Assembly: GCF_036669915.1 (NCBI RefSeq)
Contig: NC_089316.1
Coordinates: forward strand, 16,327,547-16,391,546
DNA length: 64,000 nt
Direction of reading: 5' to 3'
Origin: Pocillopora verrucosa
Lineage: Eukaryota > Cnidaria > Anthozoa > Scleractinia > Pocilloporidae
Below, in pieces: positions 1,979 through 52,384 of the stretch. Under the pieces are notes generated by a model. That model was given only the letters and a program-made list of their open reading frames with translations. It was not told the DNA's origin and searched no databases. Numbering within the stretch: the first letter of the stretch is position 1; the number at the start of each line of letters is the position of its first letter. Made by a program: the position numbers and the translations under genes.

Positions 1979-4900
1979 TTATCTGTGAGACTGTAGTAGA
2001 GCAGCACGGGCATTCACCAACGCCTTGAAGGCCTCCTCGGTTCCTGGCGCCAAACTTTTGTCTGGGTGTATTAAGATGGCCAACCTTCGATAGGCTCGGT
2101 TAATTTCCTCCCTGAAACGATGATCCAGACGAATGGACTTAGTATTTTAAATCATTACATTTTAGTTTACAAGTTGAACTTGATCGAGCGCTTTTCGATT
2201 GAGTGCGGTAAGACCAAAACTAAACTAACTACAACAGCCAATGAGCAGAAAGAAAAATACCGCCTAAAGCGCGGGAAAGCGCGGGTGACCAAGTCAAGAT
2301 TGATGTTGGTTTTGCATCTGATTGGTTGAGGGAGTGGCGCGAGTTTTGAGGACCAATCACAGAGCAAAGTTAAGCAAAACCAGTGTAATCCCGGATTACT
2401 TTTAACTCTGTTGAAAATGTCTCTTCCGAGAGCCATTAGATTGGGCTTTGACTATGTCCTAGCGAACACACACTAAAGATAATTTCATTGGCAAATGATC
2501 ATGGAAAAAAAATCAGTAAGGGCCGGTCATTAACATGATTTTTAACCTAAACCACGGTTTTACGCAATCAGTGTGCCTCAGAATTTCTCTATAAGAGAGT
2601 CGACTTGATGAAAGAAATGTTTTTCCACTGTTAGCTTTCGGCCTTCTTGGTGCTGTTCATAAAAATTTATTTTAAAGTTTGGATGAAAAGTTCAGCTTCA
2701 TCGAGGACTGTTTAGAACGCAGTTTCATAAATCAACAGCTAAAATTTGTTTAAATAATCAGACCTACGTGGTCTGTCTAACAGTGTCAGTGCACGGTTTG
2801 GAGAATGTCAGAGACAACAGTTAAAATTAAGAAATTTAAACTTTCAGTAAAGTAATAGCTCCAGCTGTTGATGAAGCGAAAACAAACTGACAAGAAAAGT
2901 TTATAAGTTTATGAAAATAACTGTTGATCATTCGACCACTGCATGAACGGTGCAAGTCTGCAGATTTAATCATATTATTTTGTTGTTTATTTCAGGACAC
3001 ATGTAGACTTCATTTTATTACTTCTTCAGTTACAAAAATATGCGATGTCGTATGTTGTTACTCATTTTTACTTGAGGTGATAATAAAACCAAGGCAATAA
3101 TTGAAGACGATTAATGTTACTCATCGTACCTGGTCGCTCCGGCTGTCAGCCCCAGTCTCTCGTAGTTATCTTTGGCTGATTTCAACCTGTGGATAGCCTC
3201 TGCCTGTTCTTTGGTGTAACCCAGAGTTGTAGAGGCATTGACCTCAACTGGTTTACCACCATTTTCAATCGTTGCCAATACTGATTGAAAGAGGGTCTGG
3301 AACAAGTGACAGATGTTGTTAGTGTTAATTATTCAACACTCATGAAAGTGCCAAGAGCTCATATAGTTACAAAAAGAGTTATTACAGAGCAAGTGAATGT
3401 AAAAATGAAAAAAGGTGACTTCAATTATTGAGTCTTCCTCTTCATGAATATGCATTTGTTCATGCAATGATTAACGAAAGGGTTTCGATGAGTAAGAATC
3501 AGAATTAAGTTGACTAAATTTAGGAGATTTTGGCTGATGACTCTGCAAAAAGGTTCGACTGTCTTGTAGAGTTCAGGCACACAAGGATTTATTCAAGTCA
3601 TGTACTGTACATAGTTAATGATCGAATCAAAAATAAAAAGAAATTGTAACCGAACTCAGAAAAGGTTAGTGGAACCAAGGCATGTATTTCGCTAGCATCT
3701 TTTTAATCTACGCTATTCAAAAATTTTGGGGTAGCTTACATAGCAGGTGTATTCCTGGCAGAAGTTCGAATTATTTCAACTGAATCTCTCTGTCGATGAA
3801 GGCCTTCCAAGGACGGCTTAGTATGAAAGAAAAAAAATAGTACGTTCCATCTAAGCCAATAAAGACAGGAACAAAAGTTTGGGAAAGCGCTGGTTCTTCG
3901 AATGGTAACGTATGCACTTCACAAGTTGCCGAAGCGCCAAGATGGCGGAGTAACAGGGCACGGATTTGGCTATCGCGTTCTGCGAGAGCTTAGCCAAGTC
4001 GCCGCATTTTCCGTGACAATTCTTTTTCATCTCTCAAATTTGTCTGTGATTTACTGAGAGACGAAACATATATTTGTGAAACAATTTGCTTAAATCGCCG
4101 AGGCTTCCAGAATGGTGTGTCGCCGCAAAATGCTGCTGTGTTAAACCTTACGAAAAGGCAAATCGAAATTTTGTAGCTGTGGCGACCGTGTTGCATCAGC
4201 TTGGAAAGACCAAAACTAGTTTGCTTTTTGAGCACCCTGTCAAATTCAGTTGGCAACCAAACAGTCAGCAGAAAGCAAAACAATGGAACCTTCGTTCAAG
4301 TTTCCACTGTCCCTACCGCCATTTCATACCACCAAAACATGGGAGGTGTCGACTTGGATGATCAGCTATGCCAAGGGCCGCAAGTCTCAAAAGTGGTAAC
4401 GATATTTGCTTTGGTCGCTAGTCGATGTTAGCATCGTGAATGCACACATTTTGGAAACCGAAGCAAGAAATCACCGCTCTAGGCCTCAGCTGCAGTTTCA
4501 GATACAGTTGGCGAAGACGGAATTAGTTGCTGTTCATTCAGAGAATCGGCAGAATGCTTGGTGAACCCTGTTCTTTATAAACCTCTAAGGAACGCTTCAA
4601 ACCTTGTTTGAAATGAAAGCGAACGAATCTTTGCAGATTGCCTTGCATCTCTTGCGGGAAACATTTCTGCTTGGATTGCTTTCAAAATCACTCGGAGTCC
4701 GATTTGTAAGAATGACACGAAATTTGAATTTTTGCAATCGAAATGTTTTGTGTTTTCACTTTGTCAATTCGCCCTTAGGAACCCAGCTTTCTGTATATAT
4801 GAAATGAATAAGACAATTATTGTTATTATATTTTGTAGTTTTTGACTTCTTGAATGTAAATATTGATTATGAATAGTATATCTAATGTGGAAGAAAACGT

Positions 4901-34334: not shown

Positions 34335-35345
34335 GTTGGACTGTAAAAGAGTTGCCTTGTTTCTTTTGTATAACATGATTGATAGGTGGGCGTTTAACAA
34401 ATATTTGTTTCTTCATGAATATTTCCTACTCTTAATTACACACTGAGAAATGTCACGATCCATGTCAAGAGCAATTAAATTCTCTTCGCTGTTCTTATTT
34501 GAAAGCTCCTTCACCAAGGTAACATTAAATGCACGTAAACCGCTTTATATGGGGTACACTAGCCTTATTCAGTGGATTGGTATAATTATAATATAAAACG
34601 CCTGGATATTATGTAACATTTTTGTTCGAGTCTCGTAAGGGCGACGAGAATGCGAGCAATGAGGAAAATTCCTATTTCATCACGTATACATGCAGCATTT
34701 GTGTGACGTGCGAGAAACCATTTGAGAAAAACATCACTTCTCATGCCCTTTTCGGAAGTGATCGTTGTCCTGTTGCCTGAACACTTCGAAAAGTTTTGCG
34801 GATACTGGCATAAACAAAAGTTGGAAGGGGCTTTGTATTCCCCCAACTGAGGTAACCACATATGAGTTTCAACATTTTCAGCTGTCAGGAAGTGCAAATG
34901 ACCTCTGGAAGAAAGGTAGCGGCAATGCCTATTTAGTCGGGTAGACTTTACCCCGTGGGAAAGCCGCAAATGAAAGCGTTGCGTGGGAAAGCAGCAAATG
35001 AAGCGTTGCGATAATTCAAGGTAGCAAAAATTTTACTTTCTATGGGGCAACTTTTTAGTTCATATTAATTTTGGGAAGTACACGTTGTTTTCGACATGTA
35101 ATCAATACAATGACGGGTTCAGTGATATCAGAGCATGACTCTAAATTAGAGTCATCGAAACTTGATTTCAATTTCATTTTGTATCTTTTTTTGTTTCTAT
35201 TCCACTTTTTGATTTGTAACCAAGCAATTGTCTTCCAGTTCATTTGCATGGAATGCTCAAACACGTGTCTATGCTCTCTTTAGATTTGCATGACATCCTC
35301 CGCTGAAAGACGGCTTTTACTGATTTTGAGGAGGCTAAGTTCAAA

Positions 35346-38300
35346 ATGTTTTGCTGTGATTTTTCATCAAGAAGAAGAAGAATGCTGGCGAACAGGCTAC
35401 TGATAATATCATCAGTTATAGTATTACTTGTCTTGGTGAGCCTCCATCTGGTAATTTTACCATCAGTGAGTGGGGGATATAACGAGGAATGTTACTTGCC
35501 ACTGGAGAGACGTCAAACGTTAAGAATGATGGTGAAGAACATTTCGCGGGTGTTTGACAAGTACGGTGTTCAGTATTGGCTCGATTATGGTGAGTTTGGC
35601 ATTCATTTCCAAGTTTAAATATAATTGTAACGTCACCACGCGCAAAAAAACCAACGCCAAAACTTAAAAGGACGCATCGTTCAAAGAATTGTGTTAAGAA
35701 TCTACGGACTCGTATTGAGACACCTAGAAAACGTATCGTGCCTTTATTTCCATCGCTATCACTTTGTGGCGCATTTTGCGGGCTACAATGGATATTTTTG
35801 TGCTAAAATGTACTTAGGCCCGCTCGCATGCTCGCGTGGTTGTTCAGACTAATTTGTCATTCTTTTTTAGTTTTTATTTTTCTCAATGCCCTCTCATGTG
35901 ATAATAATAGTAATATAGTTGATGTTCCTGAGCTAAATTTAATTTTTGGGTCTCTCTGAGAGTCAAGTTAATCCTTGCCTTACGAATCAGTATTATAACT
36001 AGTATAGGGGGTCTGTAGGACTGGCATGAAAGTGAAGCTCTAAGAAAAAAGTGGTCACGCAAACTACCAATGTCACGCGCCAGGAGAGGACAGCATGCGA
36101 CAGGAAAAAATGTTTTCCTGCACGCGTTTGTGTGGTAAGTAACTCATGTCGACGGGAGATATTATCAGCATGCTTTTTTTCTATAAACAAAATAGTACGA
36201 TTAGATGTCTATCATTTTATGATGGATCGTCTTCGAAATTGGCGCAAAGAATCGTCTCTTTCTCCGCCGAGTTATCAATTCATTTATTATTCGTTTGACG
36301 AGAAAACACGTTATACGTCTGAAGTGCCTCACCATCACTCAAAATTTTTAATGGGTCCTTCCAAGACGTTTCAATTTAGTCATTGCCCTTACACCGCTGA
36401 ATCTGTCTTGTCAGTGATGTGGTGTCCAAAATGTAAACATACAGCCGTGTCTATTTACACACGAGTTTCACTTTATTGAGATAGGAAAAAAGATACGTGC
36501 GTGTGGGCATGATTTTGAAGAGGCCATGCATGCCTATGACAATTTGAGGAATCCGAGGAAAGATGTGACAGATTTGATTGGTCAAATCAAATATCCGCCT
36601 CGATGGTATAATATTGTGGAAAGAAACAGGAGACACACATTGGACAACTAGTTGTGTATGTGTCAAGACATGGTGGGATCCTTTTGTGTGAAAAAAATTC
36701 GTCGCTTGAAAAGAAAGATCCGTTTGCAAGCTTCGGAGTATGCTCAAGACATTGAAAAATACAAAGCTATGATTGACGGGATGAAGTTACGTGAGAGACA
36801 TCGTGAACTTGTGTTTTAAGCGGCTTTACATCATGTTCACGAACCGACAGGGATGAGACATGGATGGGTCGATGGCGCTACTTGGGATAAAGAAATCGCG
36901 GCTGGTTTGGATTCTAAATATCATGATAAAGACTATTAAGATTTTTCAAAACATGATTTATTATACTTTTTTGTAGTTGTATACAATTGAAAAAAGTTCT
37001 ATATGTGTCGAATAAAATGAATGATGGAATGATGTATATGTCTATTATTAAATGTGATTAACCAATCTGCATTTTCAATCACGGGCGGGTTTTCATAATT
37101 AGTAAATCCATAATGAATTATAGAAAGATTAATCTTATAAGCATTGATATAAGTGAAAAGTTGACATTGATAAACAGTAAATAGAGGTCTTCATGTTCAC
37201 TCATTAAAAATGCATGTAACGCATAAAAGGATTGACTAAAATCTTCTAGGGGAAATTCAATCTGAAAAATAAAAATTAATCACTCATGTAAATTCTTATG
37301 GTACCACACGCAGGTAAAAAATTTTGTGTCTGATCCACGATATTCCATTATCTGTATTTCTTCATCATTTGAAAAGGTTAAACAGTGAAAGTGTTCGCTC
37401 AAAGTATAGACACTATCTACTAACATATAAAACATTTCATCATCAAATTGAATCACTTAGTTCATGTCTTCTGATGGTAAATAACGTAAAATCAAATCAA
37501 ATGATGTGTAAATATTTTTCACTTCATCGGGTTCATACTGGAAATGTTCGATCTAGAAAAATTAAAAAGTGAAGATCGTTACTGTTTTGCCTACAAGTAA
37601 AAAAGTGGTAGTTAGCCAATAATACTCGGTGCGTCTGTCTACCTTCATGAAAGCAACGAAACCATGTATACGAATCATACACACGAAGTACATTTCTTAG
37701 AAAATCGATATTTTCAAATTGAAAAGCTAGATTGAGTCCTTCTGTTCTTAATTCAGTTACAATCAAACGGAATAATGCGTAAAGATCTCCAATTTCCTCA
37801 GGGTGGTAAAGTGGTTTATATTCATCTAAAAAAGTCAAAGTACAAATGGTTACTACATCAGTTACATGTAAAATGAATTCTAATATCGTGTTATATCCTA
37901 AAGATAATCTTACATCATCATGAAAAAAACAGTGAAACAATTCGTTTAAAGCATAGACACGATTCACTTTGATATAAAACTGTACCTTATTAAATTGAAA
38001 GGCTAGATTCATGCCTCTCCTTCTTATCTTCAATAAAATACAAAATAATATTCGTGAATAGCATGACGTTCTCTAGTACTGATCTAAAAGAAAAAATGAT
38101 TTATATTGATGAAGATAATATCTATCGAGTGCAAATAACCGTACTTCCATAAAAAAGTTTACATGCGAATAACATCGCATTCCTCGATGATATTGTGAAT
38201 ATAATCCAAGAAACTCATTGATGGTAGGTGATACTAGATGAACAAAACCTAAATCACGAAAGGCGGTTTCAGGATTTGTATCACAGGTTTCTAAAAATTG

Positions 38301-41300
38301 TTTTGAAACTCATCACAAAATTTGACATGTACTAATAATAAAAAAAACATTTTGATGTAAGTGTAACTTTTTAGCGTAGATGAGACTTTGAATGGCATTC
38401 TTGACAAATCGATGATTCAGTGCATAACAACACATCTCGTAAATCATTTTCAGGCGTGTAGGATCTGATCTCATAAAAAATTAAGCCGCCTGTAAGAAAA
38501 AGTGACGAATATGATAAATGCTATTGGTATACCGAAGTGTTTCTCGACTAGAAATAACAGGATGTTGTAATTTGAATCTTACGAAAGGAAAAAATAGAGA
38601 AGCATTAAAAAAAGTGTCTTAAAAATGAAGCAAAAGGAAATTGTCTGCTACGAAATAATGATCGTGTATTCTCAGGTTAACTGTGTTCAAACCAGGCATT
38701 AAAATATCCATCAAATTCAAAATGTTTATAAATTTCAACGAGAATGAGATCTTCATGTGAAATGTTGCGATATGTCATGGCGGTTCGCACATCATCGATT
38801 AATTGTAGCATGTAATTATACATGAAATCATGTTCTAGTATAAAATAGGTGGCTTCTAAGAGATCAGGCATCTAAAGATGAATAAAAAAGTGGGTCTTAG
38901 TCTTAGATAGTCATTATAATCATCTAAAATTCGAAACGAAAAAAATTAAACATGGAAAGTGGAAAAAATAAATATGAAATAGCCTCTAAACTATATTTAC
39001 AAAAGATGCTATAATAACACAATTGATGCATTTCTTCAATATCATTTTGTAATAATATATGTTTCATGGAAGTTATTAGCGAATACCGTTTTGTAGGTAA
39101 ATTGAAGTGAGGTTCAAAAGTATAAATACGTAGCATCATATATGGCATGGAATCGGGAAAATTTTGCATGTACTGAAAGTTAAAAATAAAAAAATTACGA
39201 TCAGAGTCAGAAGTAAATAGGCAGATTTAATGGAGTCACACGTTCACAACAATAATCGACCTGTTCTTCAATCAACTAAGAAACCAGCCACCCACAACTG
39301 CAAATAGGACACCAAACCATTTCATCAATATCTTCATCCTCAAAAAATAAAAAATTTTCATTCTTAGAGTGAGGTGATATTCATACATTCCAGGTGACAC
39401 TTGAGCGAATGATACTTAAAGATCAGAAGAAACACCTAATCCACCTACTTGAGTAATTCGGTCTTCAATAGCGCCTGGTTCCAATAAGGCTTCCAAATCT
39501 CTAAGGGCTTGTTGACGCTGTTGTTCTCTATCAGGTACACGGACAGGATTGGTAGCAGCAAAAGGGGTTCGACAATTTCCATAACAATCGTGCGAGTTCA
39601 CATGATGTTGACGACAGGTACGGTGAATTCGTCGACTACAACATAAAGTCGGTTTTGCACCACGCATCGTCACATCGATCATGACGAGGCATAAAAAACA
39701 GGCGTAGGGCGTATCATCCACTTCCACCTCTTGTTGAGTAAACGTCTTGATCGTCGTACAGGAGGCATCTTTAAAAAAAGACAAATTGTTATCAAGGTCA
39801 CAGACACAGACACAGATCAAATACAGACTTACTCTATAGCGTGACAGCGTGACAGTATTGCTCTCTCTTGTCTTCTTGTTCACTTGGTAATACTATGATA
39901 ATCAATGAGGACGAGTTCGCAGTCTTACTTCATTTTATAATATAGAGTGACGTCATGAATTATATACCCATACCCCCCTCCCCTTTCCCCATCCCCATGA
40001 TGTGACAGATGTCTATTGGGGTTGACATGTAAGATAAAATCTGTCAATTAGGGTAAATACGATTTGGCGCAAAATACATCTACCTATTCTCGTGTGTGCT
40101 GCCACGACTCTCTCCGATACTATTCGTTCTTTCTATAGGTCAGATTGTACGGCAGATTTCTTAGCCTTTCTCACCGAATTGACGGTGAATGAGTATGGTG
40201 AAGATCGAGATGTCATATGTATCTTTCATGACCTGAAAGGGTACGGTTCGGTGTTTTTACAACATCAACTGCAAAAAGAAGGAAGACGTATGGAAGACAT
40301 GGTGAAAACCGGTACCAAAGCCCTTCCGTTTTGTGTGGGGCCTATTTTTTTTAAAGGTTCGCTTTGTTTCTTACCTGTGGCTCTCTTCTTTTTCTACCAC
40401 CTTTGGTATTTCTGAATGGAAAAAAGGGGTTCTTTCCTCATCTTTTCAATATGCAAGACCATCAAGAGTATGTAGGACCTATCCTAGACATAGTGTACTA
40501 TGATCCAGAAGGCATGTCAGCCAAGAAAAGACAAGAATTTGAAACCTGGTACGCCACCCAACTTCAAGAAGAAGTGAACTTTAATTTGAAAAAAGAATTG
40601 ATTGCTTACTGCAAGTCGGATGTAGCTTTACTGAAAGCAGGATGTCAGGTGTGTGTTCTGAAACCCGTTGTTCTCCACCATTACGTACGTGCTGAATACG
40701 AGGTATATCACAAGACGATGAGGGCAACTGATGTTCACACCACAATAACCATTCTAAGGCTACTCTTGATTGGTTGACTCTGGCGCCTTTCCAACCACGA
40801 GGAGGTTCTACGGCTACGGTCTCAGGTGAGAGATGACATTTTCGCTAATACCGGTTACAAGCTGAGGCAATCGTAATACATTTTTCGTCAGGGTCAAACT
40901 GGGAAATGTCCTTGAATTCTTGGACAAATTTCTGACATCCTGCTTTCAGTAAAGCTACTTTATCATGTAGAATCCAAACCAGCCGCGATTTCTTTATCCC
41001 AAGTATCGCCACAGACCCAACCATTTCTCATCCCTAACGGCTCGTGAATATGATTTAAAGCCGCATAAAATACAAGTTCACGATGTCTCTCGCGTAACTT
41101 TATCTCGTCAATCTTAGCTTTGTATTTTTCAATGTCTTGAGCATGCTCCGAAGCTTGCAAACGGATCTTTCTTTCAAGCGACGAATTTTTTTCATACAAG
41201 AAGGTCCCGCCATGTCTTGACACATACACAACTAGTTGTCCAATGTGTGTCTCCTGTTTCTTTCCACAATATTATACCATCGAGGCGAATATTTGACCAG

Positions 41301-42789
41301 CATCAACGCTTCTATTTGACCGATCAAATCTGTCACATCTTTCCTTTTCCTCTTCCAATTGTTATACGCATGACCTCTTCAAAATCATGCCCACACGAAC
41401 GTATCTTTTTCCTATCTCAATAAAGCGAAACTCGTGTGTAAACAGATACAGCTGCATATTTACATTTTGGACAACACATCATTGACAAGACAGATTCAGC
41501 GGTGTAACGACAATGACAGAATTGAAACGTCTTGGAAGAACCCATCAGACATTTTGAGTGATGGTTAGGCACTTCAGACGTATAACGTGTTTTCCCGTCA
41601 AACGAATAATAGATGAATTGATAACTCTTTCCGCCAAAATCGAAGACGTTCCATCACCATTTTATTTATAGAAAAAAGCATGCTGATAATATCTCCCGCC
41701 GCCATGAGTTACTTACCACACAAACGCGTGAAGGAAAACATTTTTTCCTGTCGCATGCTGTCCTCTCCTGGCGTGTGACATTGGTAGCTTGCGTGACCAC
41801 TTTTTTCTTAGAGCCTCACTTTCATGCCAGTCCTACAGACCCCCTATACTACTCGAATCGGGCTAAAATGACTCTGAGACGGGTCCAAAGCATATGTTAA
41901 CCAGAGAACATAAACTCGTTTTTGTTTTATTGGTGCCGTGTATTCTTAACCCTTCGACTCCCAATGTGTCATTCGTAATTCCTCTTACCGTTTGCCATAC
42001 AACTCTTATGATGTTAGTTGGGAGAATATGTGATTGGATCAACTAATCCCCAAACTGATATTTTTTTTTTATACTCACTACCAGTCTGCTTGGTTTTGTA
42101 CTGATGTTGTAAGGAGAAGTTCTGTCACGGTCACTTATCAGAGTTAAAGGGTCCATATTTGCAAGGTCATTCCGTCTATTCGTCGATCTCTTGTTGTAAT
42201 TGTTTTTGTTTTTTCGGTTATTGACTCAATCATTTTTTCATTAATTAATCGAATCTCTTTCTCTTATTTACTTCACTTATAAAGTTCGATTCTTTTGTAT
42301 TCAGGAACCCTGCTTGGCGCCTATCGCATGGGAGACATCTTGCCATATGATCACGATGCCGACATTTCTTATATTTTGGAAACCGAGAAGCCGGAAGCTT
42401 TCCGTGAACTGCGTGAGCTTGGAATGCAAGCCAATGGTTTGGTTGCAGTATTAGGGGATGTGACTGTGGATTTTATGAGATGGCAACCAGTGAACGTATC
42501 AAGTTACATTTCTGGCAAAACTGAAACAATGCTACGCAAATATTATCCTCCTTCATCAAAGGACAATCTCATTCTGAAATACCATCATACGTTGGAAACT
42601 TCTCCCATGTCGTGGGTGGTACCATTCAAAAAGTTCTATTTCCAGGAAGTGAACGTCGCACTTCCCAACTCACCGGATAAATTACTAGCCTTTAGATACC
42701 CGTATACGTTCGGAACGCTTGGATTACCGTTTCCTTATAAGTGGAAATGCTGGGTGCCCTGTTATTTGAGAAAAAGCAATGGCTGCTAA
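35346..42789 (+). CDS. LicD/fukutin-related membrane protein, copy A (two exons)
   Basis: Exons 35346-35589 and 42305-42789 join in phase to about 242 residues. An N-terminal basic stretch (SSRRRR) and one hydrophobic helix (about 17-40) predict a type II Golgi/ER anchor. The junction restores LDYGTLLGAYRMGDILPYDH, the LicD/FKRP nucleotidyltransferase signature, with the acidic motif Asp97-His-Asp99-Ala-Asp101. Family members transfer phospho-sugar alcohols or phosphocholine from nucleotide donors onto glycans (FKRP adds ribitol phosphate to dystroglycan); the substrate here is unknown. Splice sites ATG/GTGAGT and TTTGTATTCAG/GA are clean and conserved in copy B. The 6.7 kb intron is long only because a Polinton-like element and an R1 repeat sit in it. 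The MS4A-like gene is convergent downstream. Confidence 0.85.
35989..36931 (+). repeat. left terminal inverted repeat of the Polinton-like element
   Basis: Matches 40961-41853 in inverted orientation nearly throughout (for example agtatagggggtctgtagga at both outer ends and ggctggtttggattcta at both inner ends). It carries two broken frames on the plus strand. One ends in a zinc-binding-like MWCPKC segment near 36420-36479. The other is a coiled-coil-like frame around 36690-36820 with internal stops. The left copy has lost cysteines and gained stops relative to the right copy. Confidence 0.85.
37190..39370 (-). pseudogene. unidentified minus-strand frames in the Polinton-like element
   Basis: Several open stretches (37533-38033, 38677-38871, 38924-39169 and shorter ones) read on the minus strand. 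The 37533-38033 frame contains two related units, roughly 90 residues apart, each starting LNLAFQF or MNLAFQF followed by a RVY segment; a third related piece (VYTLSEHFHCLTF) occurs near 37380-37430. Pieces are separated by short AT-rich gaps, some with TTTTTCTTTTAG-like acceptor sites, so they may be exons or a degraded repeat protein. Near 39290-39350 the frame DEMVWCPIC suggests a second zinc-binding segment. I recognise no family. Confidence 0.4.
39416..39883 (-). CDS. RING-like zinc-binding ORF of the Polinton-like element
   Basis: A 155-residue minus-strand frame. The central part has CFLC, then LCC, IHRTC, HH and CYGNC, a Cys/His spacing compatible with a RING-type or related cross-brace zinc domain (about residues 63-107). 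A Gln/Arg-rich acidic C-terminal tail follows. An alternative start would give a basic MPPVRRSRR leader in another frame, hinting at a frameshift near 39730-39760. RING-like ORFs are common accessory genes of large DNA transposons and related viruses; the role here is unknown. Confidence 0.5.
   Translation of the reverse strand: MNKKTRESNTVTLSRYRVSLYLICVCVCDLDNNLSFFKDASCTTIKTFTQQEVEVDDTPYACFLCLVMIDVTMRGAKPTLCCSRRIHRTCRQHHVNSHDCYGNCRTPFAATNPVRVPDREQQRQQALRDLEALLEPGAIEDRITQVGGLGVSSDL
40090..40660 (+). pseudogene. protein-primed family B DNA polymerase, exonuclease-domain fragment, frameshifted
   Basis: The first frame (from about 40092) contains HDLKGYGSVF, the Exo II-type motif of pPolB. After a frame change near 40380-40415 the second frame gives WKKGFFPHLFN, YVGPILDIVYYDPEGM and YCKSDVALLKAGC, the Exo III-type YC-x-x-DV motif. 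This order is diagnostic of pPolB in Polintons and related elements. The polymerase palm domain (SLYP, KKY, DTD motifs) is absent. The copy is broken and truncated. It is described only as found; the break lies between the two frames named. Confidence 0.78.
40844..40966 (-). pseudogene. inverted piece of the same DNA polymerase gene
   Basis: On the minus strand, entering from the right inverted repeat, the frame reads KVALLKAGCQ, then KFVQEFKDISQFDPDEKC and ITIASACNRY before a stop. It therefore repeats the end of the plus-strand fragment (KAGCQ) and continues further into the gene. The two polymerase pieces face each other 0.2 kb apart, showing an internal inverted duplication or deletion between mirror halves. 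Confidence 0.7.
40961..41853 (-). repeat. right terminal inverted repeat of the Polinton-like element
   Basis: Inverse of 35989-36931. The minus-strand frame 40963-41229 (88 residues) is open here although its left twin has stops. It contains a charged coiled-coil-like stretch (HAQDIEKYKAKIDEIKLRER) and ends WDKEIAAGLDST. Further out, the minus-strand frame near 41450-41600 keeps HHSKC, FCHC and MCCPKC cysteines that the left copy has partly lost, suggesting a zinc-ribbon-like protein. Confidence 0.8.
41947..42151. repeat. MITE-like repeat, family R1 copy 3
   Basis: taacccttcgactcccaa at the left and (inverted) ccctttaactctgataag at the right, with gattggatcaact and gtaaggagaa blocks inside, inverted relative to the DNAJC27-intron copy. 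The same insertion is present in copy B (51019-51225), so it predates the segmental duplication. Confidence 0.65.
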
Positions 42790-42851
42790 AGGTATCGAAT
42801 GAATTAAAACCGAAAATGTGCACTGTGCTACTACGCTAGTTAAATTGTCCA

Positions 42852-49400: not shown

Positions 49401-50293
49401 CTACAGTGTATTCACAAATCATACTATTAAAAAGGAATCACATACCTTCCATTTTTGCGGTCGAATCCTATCCTATCATCTGAGTTAAAGGGAACTAGTT
49501 GATAGTAGCTCCAAAATACCACTAACATGATTTCGGTAGATAAAAATGAATTAAGTCTTACATGAAAGATTATTTAAGTCTTAATTAATTGGTTCCGATT
49601 TAAGCGACCGCGCAATACAGGTGGAGAACGATACAAAAAGACCTTTGGGACTTTGTAACGGGTGACTGCGACCGCTTAATAGAGGTGAAAATTACAGTCA
49701 CCAAGGGGTAACAATTTCGTCCTTTGAAAACCGACCGCTTAATACAGGGTGAAAGCTTAACATGGTGCTGCTTAATACAGGTTGGACTGCAAAAGAGTTG
49801 TCTTGTTTCTTTTGTATAACATGATTGTTAAATAGGAGCTTAACAAATATTTGTTTCTTCATGAATATTTCTTACTCTTAATTACGCACTGAGAAATGTC
49901 ACGATCCATGTGAAGAGCAATTAAATTCTCTTCGCTGTTTTTATTTGGAAGCTCAAGATAACTCAACGCGGCAAAATTTTACTTTCTATGGGGTAACTTT
50001 TTAGTTCATATTAATTTTGGAAAGTGCACGTTGTTTTCGACATATAATCAATACAATGACAGGTTCAGTGATATCAGAGCATGACTCTAAATTAGAGTCA
50101 TCGAAACTTGATTTCAATTTCATTTTGTATCTTTTTTGTTTCTATTCCACGTTTTGATTTGTAACCAAACAATTGTCTTCCAGTTCATTTGCATGGACTG
50201 CTCACACACCTTTCCATGCTCTCTTTAGATTTGCATGACATCCTCCGCTGAAAGACGGCTTTTACTGATTTTGAGGAGGCTAAGTTGTTTACA

Positions 50294-51810
50294 ATGTTTC
50301 GTTGTGATTTTTCGTCAAGAAGAAGAAGAAGAATGCTGGCGAACATAATAATATCATCAGTTATTAGTATTATCCGTGAGCGAGGGATATAACGAGGAAT
50401 GTTACTTGCCACTGGAGAGACGTCAAACGTTAAGGATGATGGTGAAGAACATTTCACGGGTGTTTGACAAGTACGGTGTTCAGTATTGGCTCGATTATGG
50501 TGAGTTTGGCATTCATTTCCAAGTTTAATTATAATTGTAACGTCGCCGCGCGCAAAGAAACCAATGCCAAAGTTTAAAAGAACCCATCGTTTCAAAGAAT
50601 TGTGTTAAGAATCTACGAACTCGTATTGAGATACCTGTTAAACGTCTCATGGCTTTATTTCTATCGAAACGAAATTTATATGTATTTTTTTTCAAACTAG
50701 ATTTTGTTATCACTTGGCGCATTTATCGGGCTAAAATGGATATTTTTGTGCTAAAATGTACTTGGGCCCGCTCGCATGCTCGCGTGGTTGTCAGACTATT
50801 TTGTCATTCTTTCTTAGTTCTTATTTTTTTCAACCCCCTCTCATGTGATAATAATAGTAATATAGTTAATGTTCTTGAGCTAAATTTAATTTCTGGGTCT
50901 CTCTAAGAGTCAACTAAATCCTCGCCTTACGACTCGGGCTAAAATGACTCTGAGTCGGGCCCAAAACATATCTTAATCCGAAACATAAACGCTATTGTTT
51001 TATTAGTGCCGTGTATTCTTACTCTTCGACTCTAAAGATGCCATCCGTAATTCCTCTTACCGTCTGCCATACAATTCTTATCATGTTAGTTGAGAGAATT
51101 TGGGATTGGATCAACTAATAATCCCCAAACTGATAGTTTTCTATATACTCACCACCTGTCTCCTTGGTTTTGTATTGATGTTGTAAGGAGAAGTTCTGTC
51201 ACGGTCACTTATCAGAGTTAAAGGGTTCATATTTGCAAGGTCATTCTGTCTATTCGTCGATCTCTTGCTGGTGCTGTTTTTTTTTTTGGTTATTGACTCA
51301 ATTATTTTTTCATTAATTAATCGAATCTCTTTCTCTTATTTACTTCACTTACAAAGTTCGATTCTTTTGTATTCAGGAACCCTGCTTGGCGCCTATCGCA
51401 TGGGAGACATCTTGCCATATGATCACGATGCCGACATTTCTTATATTTTGGAAACCGAGAAGCCGGAAGCTTTCCGTAAACTGCGTGAGCTTGGAATGCA
51501 AGCCAATGGTTTGGTTGTTGCATTAGGGGATGTGACTGTGGATTTTATGAGATGGCAACCAGTGAACGTCTCAAGTTACATTTCTGGCAAAACTGAAACA
51601 ATGCTACGCAAATATTACCCTCCTTCATCAAAGGAAAATCTCATTCTGAAATACCATCATACGTTGGAAACTTCTCCCATGTCGTGGGTGGTATCTTTCA
51701 AAAGGTTCTATTTCCAGGAAGTGAATGTTGCACTTCCCAACTCACGGGATAAATTACTAGCCTTTAGATACCCGTATACGTTCGGAGCGCGTGGATTTCA
51801 GTTTCCTTAG
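50294..51810 (+). pseudogene. LicD/fukutin-related gene, copy B, frameshifted
   Basis: Exon 1 (50294-50499) and exon 2 (51377-51810) keep the splice sites of copy A. Exon 1 has lost roughly 45 bases inside the membrane-anchor coding part, and the frame from the ATG stops at a TAA near 50390, before the catalytic region. Exon 2 stays open with DHDAD intact but stops early (TAG at 51808), about 18 codons short of copy A. A shorter cytosolic product from an internal ATG is conceivable but would lack the anchor. I call it a pseudogene. Confidence 0.8.
51019..51225. repeat. MITE-like repeat, family R1 copy 4
   Basis: Orthologous to the R1 copy at 41947-42151 in duplication copy A (same position in the LicD-like intron), with small indels. 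A piece of its right end also remains in remnant C at about 59650-59690. Confidence 0.65.
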
Positions 51811-52384
51811 AAGTGTTAATGCTGGGTGCCCTGTTATTTGAGAAAAAGCAATGGTTCCTAAAGGTATCGAGGGTAATTACGTTATTTTGACGAAACACTT
51901 TCATTTTATTACGACTCTCCCCTCGTATTGGTATCCTGCGTACCGGGTGGTTTTTTTGTGCTTCATAGGCTCGTAGGGCGGCAATAATGAATCCAATCAG
52001 AAAGCTGCATTCGAAAAGGGAACAAGAAAACCAAAATACATAGATACAGAGAGGATTAAGCGGAATATGAGAATCCATATGTTAATTTTTTTAGGGGTTT
52101 TAAGGAAATATTTATATACTTATATGTGATTAAATCAGCAAAATATGCAAGAATGTAATATTTATTAGTGATGTAATTGCTTAAATTTAAAAGTCATATG
52201 AACAAGTGATAATTAAAGCTTTATTTATTAACGGCAGGCACACTCAATTTTTGCATTGTTTTATACTATCTTTACTATTGTCATTTTTGTAATTAAAGTT
52301 TGCAATTATTTGTCAAAAGATGTATGTTGACAAAGGTTTTCTTTCATTCTAGTGTCATGTTACAGACACAAACGGGCGCGATGA

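Follow-up and report, generated by a model that had tools for sequence, protein, structure and literature searches.

A Polinton-derived element in a LicD-like gene of Pocillopora verrucosa with a right end that resembles an inverted copy of its left end

Insertion site, arms and relative age

The window analysed here, a stretch of 64,000 nucleotides of the Pocillopora verrucosa genome (C5:16327547-16391546 of the 353.4-Mb, 52-contig assembly that was used for genome searches), contains two LicD-like genes in tandem (PF04991 with E 2.2e-07 and 8e-06), referred to as copies A and B, and an element of 5865 bp at 35989-41853 that lies inside an intron of copy A. This intron has its donor, GATTATG/GTGAGT, after position 35589, with the same motif at 50493 in copy B, and its acceptor, TTCAG/GAACC, at 42304/42305, followed by the LicD-like exon downstream of the insertion (42305-42789, plus strand). 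The element is bordered by a perfect 6-bp target site duplication (TSD), CGAATC at 35983-35988 and at 41854-41859, while copy B reads CGACTC once, at 50930-50935. Of the two flanks, the left one (35010-35988) has its counterpart at 49957-50935 of copy B; that of the right one (41854-42798) is 50930-51870, and what the two alignments share is exactly the 6-bp target. At this site of copy B, where the initial annotation had called for a search for homologous sequence, the element has no match at E 1e-3. Precise excision from copy B was considered and rejected, as B carries a single intact target and excision is not needed. The locus offers a precise empty site together with a relative date within a tandem duplication. 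An Rfam scan of the window at gathering thresholds gave 0 matches.

The two ends of the element are inverted arms of about 0.93 kb. The left arm (35989-36931, plus strand) consists of a terminal inverted repeat (TIR) and a block of left-end-only sequence, and the right arm (40958-41853, minus strand) is its inverted copy; 36000-36931 aligns to 41851-40958 with 85.3% identity over 950 columns, gaps included. The termini read AGT...ACT, and the right end finishes in ACTACT, that is, (ACT)2. At the left terminus (35989-36007) the sequence is AGT, then ATTATAACT, then AGTATAG, a 9-bp addition at the terminal triplet that occupies 35992-36000. The element's own right end and the end of a relative on contig C7 both read AGTAGTATAG and lack these 9 bp; the ends of the other relatives were found using the motif itself and do not provide independent evidence on this addition.

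Because the B site is clean, the insertion postdates the A/B duplication. The arms differ by 66 substitutions in 876 aligned sites (K2P 0.080), distributed from the end inwards over four bins as 3.4, 9.7, 10.8 and 6.7%, with no jump at the native TIR boundary. Four blocks aligned between copies A and B differ at 75/935, 62/938, 216/2291 and 42/556 sites, which corresponds to K2P values of 0.085, 0.069, 0.101 and 0.080, respectively. Arm divergence is about equal to the divergence of the two gene copies, and because of this resemblance the insertion would have followed soon after the duplication, provided that the arms were identical when inserted. The main structural points of the initial annotation, namely an insert of 5865 bp with AGT/ACT termini, inverted repeats of about 0.9 kb and a 6-bp cgaatc duplication, an intron in copy B that is uninterrupted near 50928, and a duplication that preceded the insertion, are all borne out by the alignments.

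A resident Polinton lineage and the gene content of the element

The first 220 bp of the element match, besides its own arms, one other place in the genome, at about C7:11906734, so that its TIR end is common to another locus, as the initial annotation had asked to be verified. A relaxed end motif, AGTAGTATAGNGNGTCT, has 21 matches in the genome, amongst them the element's right end, compared with 1 for the motif read backwards. Twelve of the 21 could be paired into six candidate elements, with nine left unpaired. In five of the six pairs, the ends enclose 14.8-26.8 kb and carry alignable TIRs of 573-623 bp. Identical 6-bp TSDs flank four of the six (C5 GGCAAA, C8 CGTCGG, C10 CATAGA, C13 ACTGCG); the C3 pair has unequal flanks (GACGCG/GTGGCT) and no TSD match. 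The C10 copy measures 18.9 kb and its arms are 99.3% identical, which suggests recent activity. Vertebrate Mavericks are described in PMC8097293 with (AGT)2//(ACT)2 ends and 6-bp TSDs, and the agreement in ends and TSDs is the reason why the lineage is taken as Polinton/Maverick.

The genome search for relatives that had been suggested did recover full-length Polintons and pieces with integrase. Coding sequence for an rve integrase (E 2.9e-15), with a chromodomain match under the Pfam cut-off (5.5e-05), and for an adenovirus-type protease (E 1.3e-05) lies in one piece of the C8 copy; a C3 piece encodes a PLA2-like domain (E 4.3e-11) and has a sub-threshold FtsK-like match (0.0016). No capsid match was found in PHROGs (five of the relatives' frames) or in the PDB (two frames). 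Of 20 loci matched in the genome, 16 were taken on, leaving out the element's own three and one that overlapped. The nearest relatives, on C6 and C7, are decayed and the outer termini of C6 were not located, so that the length of the native TIR is less well established in the C6/C7 group than in the other groups. Looking for the second end of the C7 copy with the end motif and its presumed TSD gave 0 matches.

Several of the relatives have peculiarities of their own. At C13:5499989-5513906, two Polinton ends from different groups point towards each other at a distance of 13.9 kb; they have neither alignable TIRs nor equal flanks nor a TSD, and may represent two elements, a hybrid or a recombined pair. 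The paired ends at C5:18804012-18830861, with the perfect TSD GGCAAA, enclose 26.8 kb, which exceeds the 18.8-18.9-kb copies by 8 kb, and may hold a nested insert. A zinc-like domain of the TIR stands in tandem at the C7 right end (L003:1689-2532, three matches among the matches listed) and as a run of four on one side of C6; these arrays suggest that TIRs in the C6/C7 group lengthen through tandem duplication of coding sequence for a domain. At L020 (C6:11749500-11754396) a block matching L066 from about 2890 to 3950 is present in tandem at least two times among the matches listed.

Within the element, the outermost gene, referred to as the end gene, has a Cys/His-rich part at 36307-36671 (plus strand, inverted copy at 41212-41596), called zinc-like by eye and having no Pfam match, which is assigned to the native TIR because it is present on both sides of the related C6 copy. 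The C-terminal part of the same gene (36727-36936, plus strand) lies just inside the TIR at one end only, the left, in relatives. It is followed by a repeat-containing gene (37053-39272, minus strand) broken into short frames by short introns and/or decay, and by a RING-like gene (39419-39892, minus strand; named by eye, no Pfam match) with 16 genomic matches including itself, which in relatives stands between the end gene and the gene for the family B DNA polymerase (PolB). In the repeat-gene region (36927-38474), about 1.3-1.45 kb has no blastn counterpart in C6, where 36926 adjoins 38380 (element coordinates), or at C8:22.90 Mb, where 37185 adjoins 38475, and repeat number may vary between copies.

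The DNA-polymerase fragments named in the initial annotation are real, though weak: one matches DNA_pol_B_2 with E 9e-05 and 22 bits, below the Pfam cut-off of 25.8, and has 25 genome matches including itself, seven of them in open frames of more than 900 aa. An intact protein-primed PolB is absent; there are two broken, opposed fragments, and the start and end of the polymerase are missing. The Pfam scan covered nine of the element's 35 frames of at least 50 aa and returned nothing above the curated cut-off, and in these nine frames there was no match to an RVE integrase, a protease or an FtsK-like ATPase. In direct tblastx comparisons at E 0.01 the element had 0 HSPs with the relatives' integrase/protease piece (L065), against 17 HSPs for the PolB control, and 0 with each of the pieces L067, L020, L045 and L058; L066, L021 and L056 gave one weak HSP each (E 0.003, 5e-06 and 0.004), matches that the copy-back account given below leaves unexplained. 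With its PolB broken and no integrase or protease match, the element agrees with the earlier description as non-autonomous, and given that it shares ends and gene order with full-length relatives it is a non-autonomous derivative of the resident Polinton lineage. The view that its gene set falls outside the Polinton core did not hold: relatives in this genome also have the end, repeat and RING-like genes at their left ends, with order and orientation unchanged. They are the lineage's own left-end genes, and the gene content is ordinary for this lineage; foreign gene cargo was rejected on the same grounds.

Collinearity with full-length copies and the origin of the right arm

The arrangement of the element was mapped onto the 18.9-kb C10 copy, with distances counted from the left end of that copy and the best of overlapping matches retained. 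In the same direction as in C10 are 36727-36936 (0.69-0.90 kb), the repeat gene (1.0-2.6 kb), the RING-like gene (2.8-3.2 kb) and the first PolB fragment (5.85-6.42 kb); inverted are 40991-40689 (6.36-6.67 kb) and 41178-40964 (0.67-0.88 kb), and the C8 copy gives the same picture. By the C10 and C8 maps, the element starts with left-end sequence running inward and, after a gap (D1), continues with PolB; from there PolB and the left end run outward. It is collinear with the left ~3.2 kb and a PolB piece (~5.85-6.67 kb) of the 18.9-kb relative, the rest being missing; by collinearity it is without everything to the right of ~6.67 kb, and the right two thirds of the relative are absent.

D1, at 40031-40069, was placed by comparison with C3:24.58 Mb and C10. 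It spans 39 nt here against 2287 nt at C3:24.58 Mb among the matches listed, where one side is a 31-bp match only, and against C10 the distance between 39783 and 40077 is 294 nt as opposed to 2636 nt, a loss of about 2.3 kb. PolB fragment 1 (40069-40648, plus strand) has broken frames and is continued, in inverted orientation, by fragment 2 (40649-40958, minus strand); in the relative L006 the blocks of both fragments are contiguous and in one orientation (tblastx). The fragments have a 27-nt stem in common (40622-40648, with an inverted copy of 100% identity at 40932-40958), which encloses a unique loop of 283 nt. At junction D2 (40958/40959) the inverted PolB block is joined to the inverted left end with one shared base.

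What sets the element apart from its relatives is its right arm. In relatives, the outer ~0.57-0.62 kb is common to both ends, but the gene block just inside is not: in every one of the six pairs, a protein from this block matches a single end (E 6e-15 or better), a chance-level match at the C10 right end (E 5) not being counted. For C3, C5, C8 and C10 the direction of PolB shows independently that the end with the block is the left end, and for C13:15.74 Mb the RING-like gene does so; in the pair at C13:5.5 Mb, which is not a clean element, left and right are told by the block alone. At the C7 end, which is taken as a right end because integrase follows, only residues 1-20 of the block match (E 0.002). 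On C6, the zinc-like part of the TIR is present in inverted orientation at 11745573-11746528 and 11759351-11759647, and the left-only block on one side only. In the element, the block is present in both arms, the second time at 40964-41178 on the minus strand. The right end thus looks like a copied left end that extends beyond the normal TIR, an end structure which, as far as these comparisons go, is unusual for the lineage. The description as a short Polinton derivative therefore needs qualification: a derivative it is, but not one that was simply shortened, as the right arm holds left-only sequence with an inverted PolB block adjoining it.

Routes to the present arrangement

We favour as the probable origin of the element that a derivative of a resident Polinton/Maverick was made by copy-back (snapback) synthesis and integrated as a 5.9-kb unit after the A/B duplication. 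DNA synthesis would have run inward from the left end, on a template without the ~2.3 kb between the RING-like gene and PolB unless that loss came afterwards. Inside PolB it would have turned back onto the opposite strand, followed this for ~0.3 kb, skipped ~5.5 kb and then copied the left end back to its terminus. With two left-end TIRs, the product would have carried the cis signals for the protein-primed polymerase and the integrase of an intact relative, and the unit could then have been integrated into the intron of LicD-like copy A, generating the 6-bp TSD. Two hallmarks of a snapback product are seen here, an inverted first end that reaches beyond the normal TIR and a U-turn with a unique loop. 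The ends, the TSD, the empty site, the kinship and collinearity with full-length relatives, the missing right two thirds, the left-only sequence of the right arm and the inverted PolB block are direct observations; copy-back as the route, the use of a relative's enzymes and integration in the short form are what we infer from them.

The number of copies bears on mobility. In searches that score the best candidates only, one copy of the 5.9-kb arrangement was found in the genome rather than several, and right-arm DNA has 14 genome matches, of which two are the element's own arms and the others are weaker (74-86% identity) and lie elsewhere. The earlier statement that the element shows mobilisation in trans is too strong for one copy that may have been rearranged where it stands; such mobilisation is plausible.

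A single copy is also what would be expected if a full-length Polinton had inserted into the intron and had been cut down in place by host repair, through template switching and TIR recombination, with the short form never having been mobile. Several rearrangement junctions, of which D2 has one shared base, and the presence of full-length relatives with TSDs in four of six end pairs would fit such a history, and had the native right TIR been retained, with the junction closed by recombination inside it, the sequence predicted is identical. This route needs, however, D1, the U-turn and the loss of about 12 kb, as well as a join that restored the right end perfectly down to its final base and left the TSD unharmed, and we consider it unlikely. 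Another starting point would be a Polinton with TIRs of ~0.93 kb that suffered a plain internal deletion, the inversion in PolB being a later, unrelated event between the 27-bp inverted repeats. TIR length does vary by group, from 573-623 bp in five pairs to ~680 bp as judged from the C7 match (to 36671), and a long-TIR parent followed by deletion and inversion gives the same sequence as copy-back. Yet the left-only block stands at both ends in none of the six pairs, for which reason a native long TIR was rejected as the first choice, the C7 right end lacks all but the first 20 residues of the block, and the inverted PolB block abuts the arm exactly, which would have to be a coincidence; we hold this history to be quite improbable. 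That there is no integrated element at all, only chance repeats or an assembly artefact, has nothing to recommend it except the odd 9-bp addition at the left terminus, and in view of the exact TSD, the empty site and ends common to relatives its probability is close to negligible.

The copy-back reading has counterparts amongst known systems. Adenoviruses, which share protein-primed replication with Polintons, give rise to left-end-duplicated defective genomes such as Ad12 SYREC, which are linear, symmetric and have two left ends; unlike these packaged virus DNAs, the element is known only as a genomic fossil. Non-autonomous DNA transposons of the MITE type keep both ends, have lost their enzymes and are flanked by TSDs. 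The element resembles them in these respects and differs in that one copy was found, in its length, and in its end duplication as opposed to a plain internal deletion. In the open-licence literature no copy-back Polinton was recognised by title and abstract opening among the matches listed, and no paper was found there on non-autonomous Polintons or Mavericks, searched by phrase, or on left-end-duplicated defective genomes of adenovirus. For adeno-associated virus (AAV), PMC8235507 describes self-complementary snapback genomes that have the sequence of one end at both ends and include asymmetric forms, and cites template switching as their proposed origin. The element likewise has one end's sequence at both ends; unlike the AAV forms described there, it is chromosomal with a TSD, belongs to Polintons rather than to parvoviruses, and lacks most of the back arm. 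With Polintons and Mavericks as portrayed in PMC4028283 and PMC8097293, it shares (AGT)2//(ACT)2-type ends, a 6-bp TSD, TIRs, PolB and relatives with integrase and protease; it departs from them in measuring 5.9 kb instead of 15-20 kb and in having no match to the relatives' integrase/protease piece. Its PolB, in two broken, opposed fragments, and its right end, apparently copied from the left, set it further apart.

By analogy with these systems, it is possible, with somewhat less than an even chance, that Polintons make copy-back defective genomes with two left ends that are integrated by the integrase of an intact relative. If this is true, the genome would hold a fossil record of defective, possibly interfering, Polinton genomes, and would provide indirect evidence that Polintons replicated in an animal germ line as free, linear DNA with protein priming. 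Polinton replication has been argued mostly from gene content, whereas copy-back junctions would be footprints of the replication process itself. Should further copies or other species show the arrangement, integrated defective genomes would allow protein-primed, extrachromosomal replication of Polintons to be tested with genome assemblies alone.
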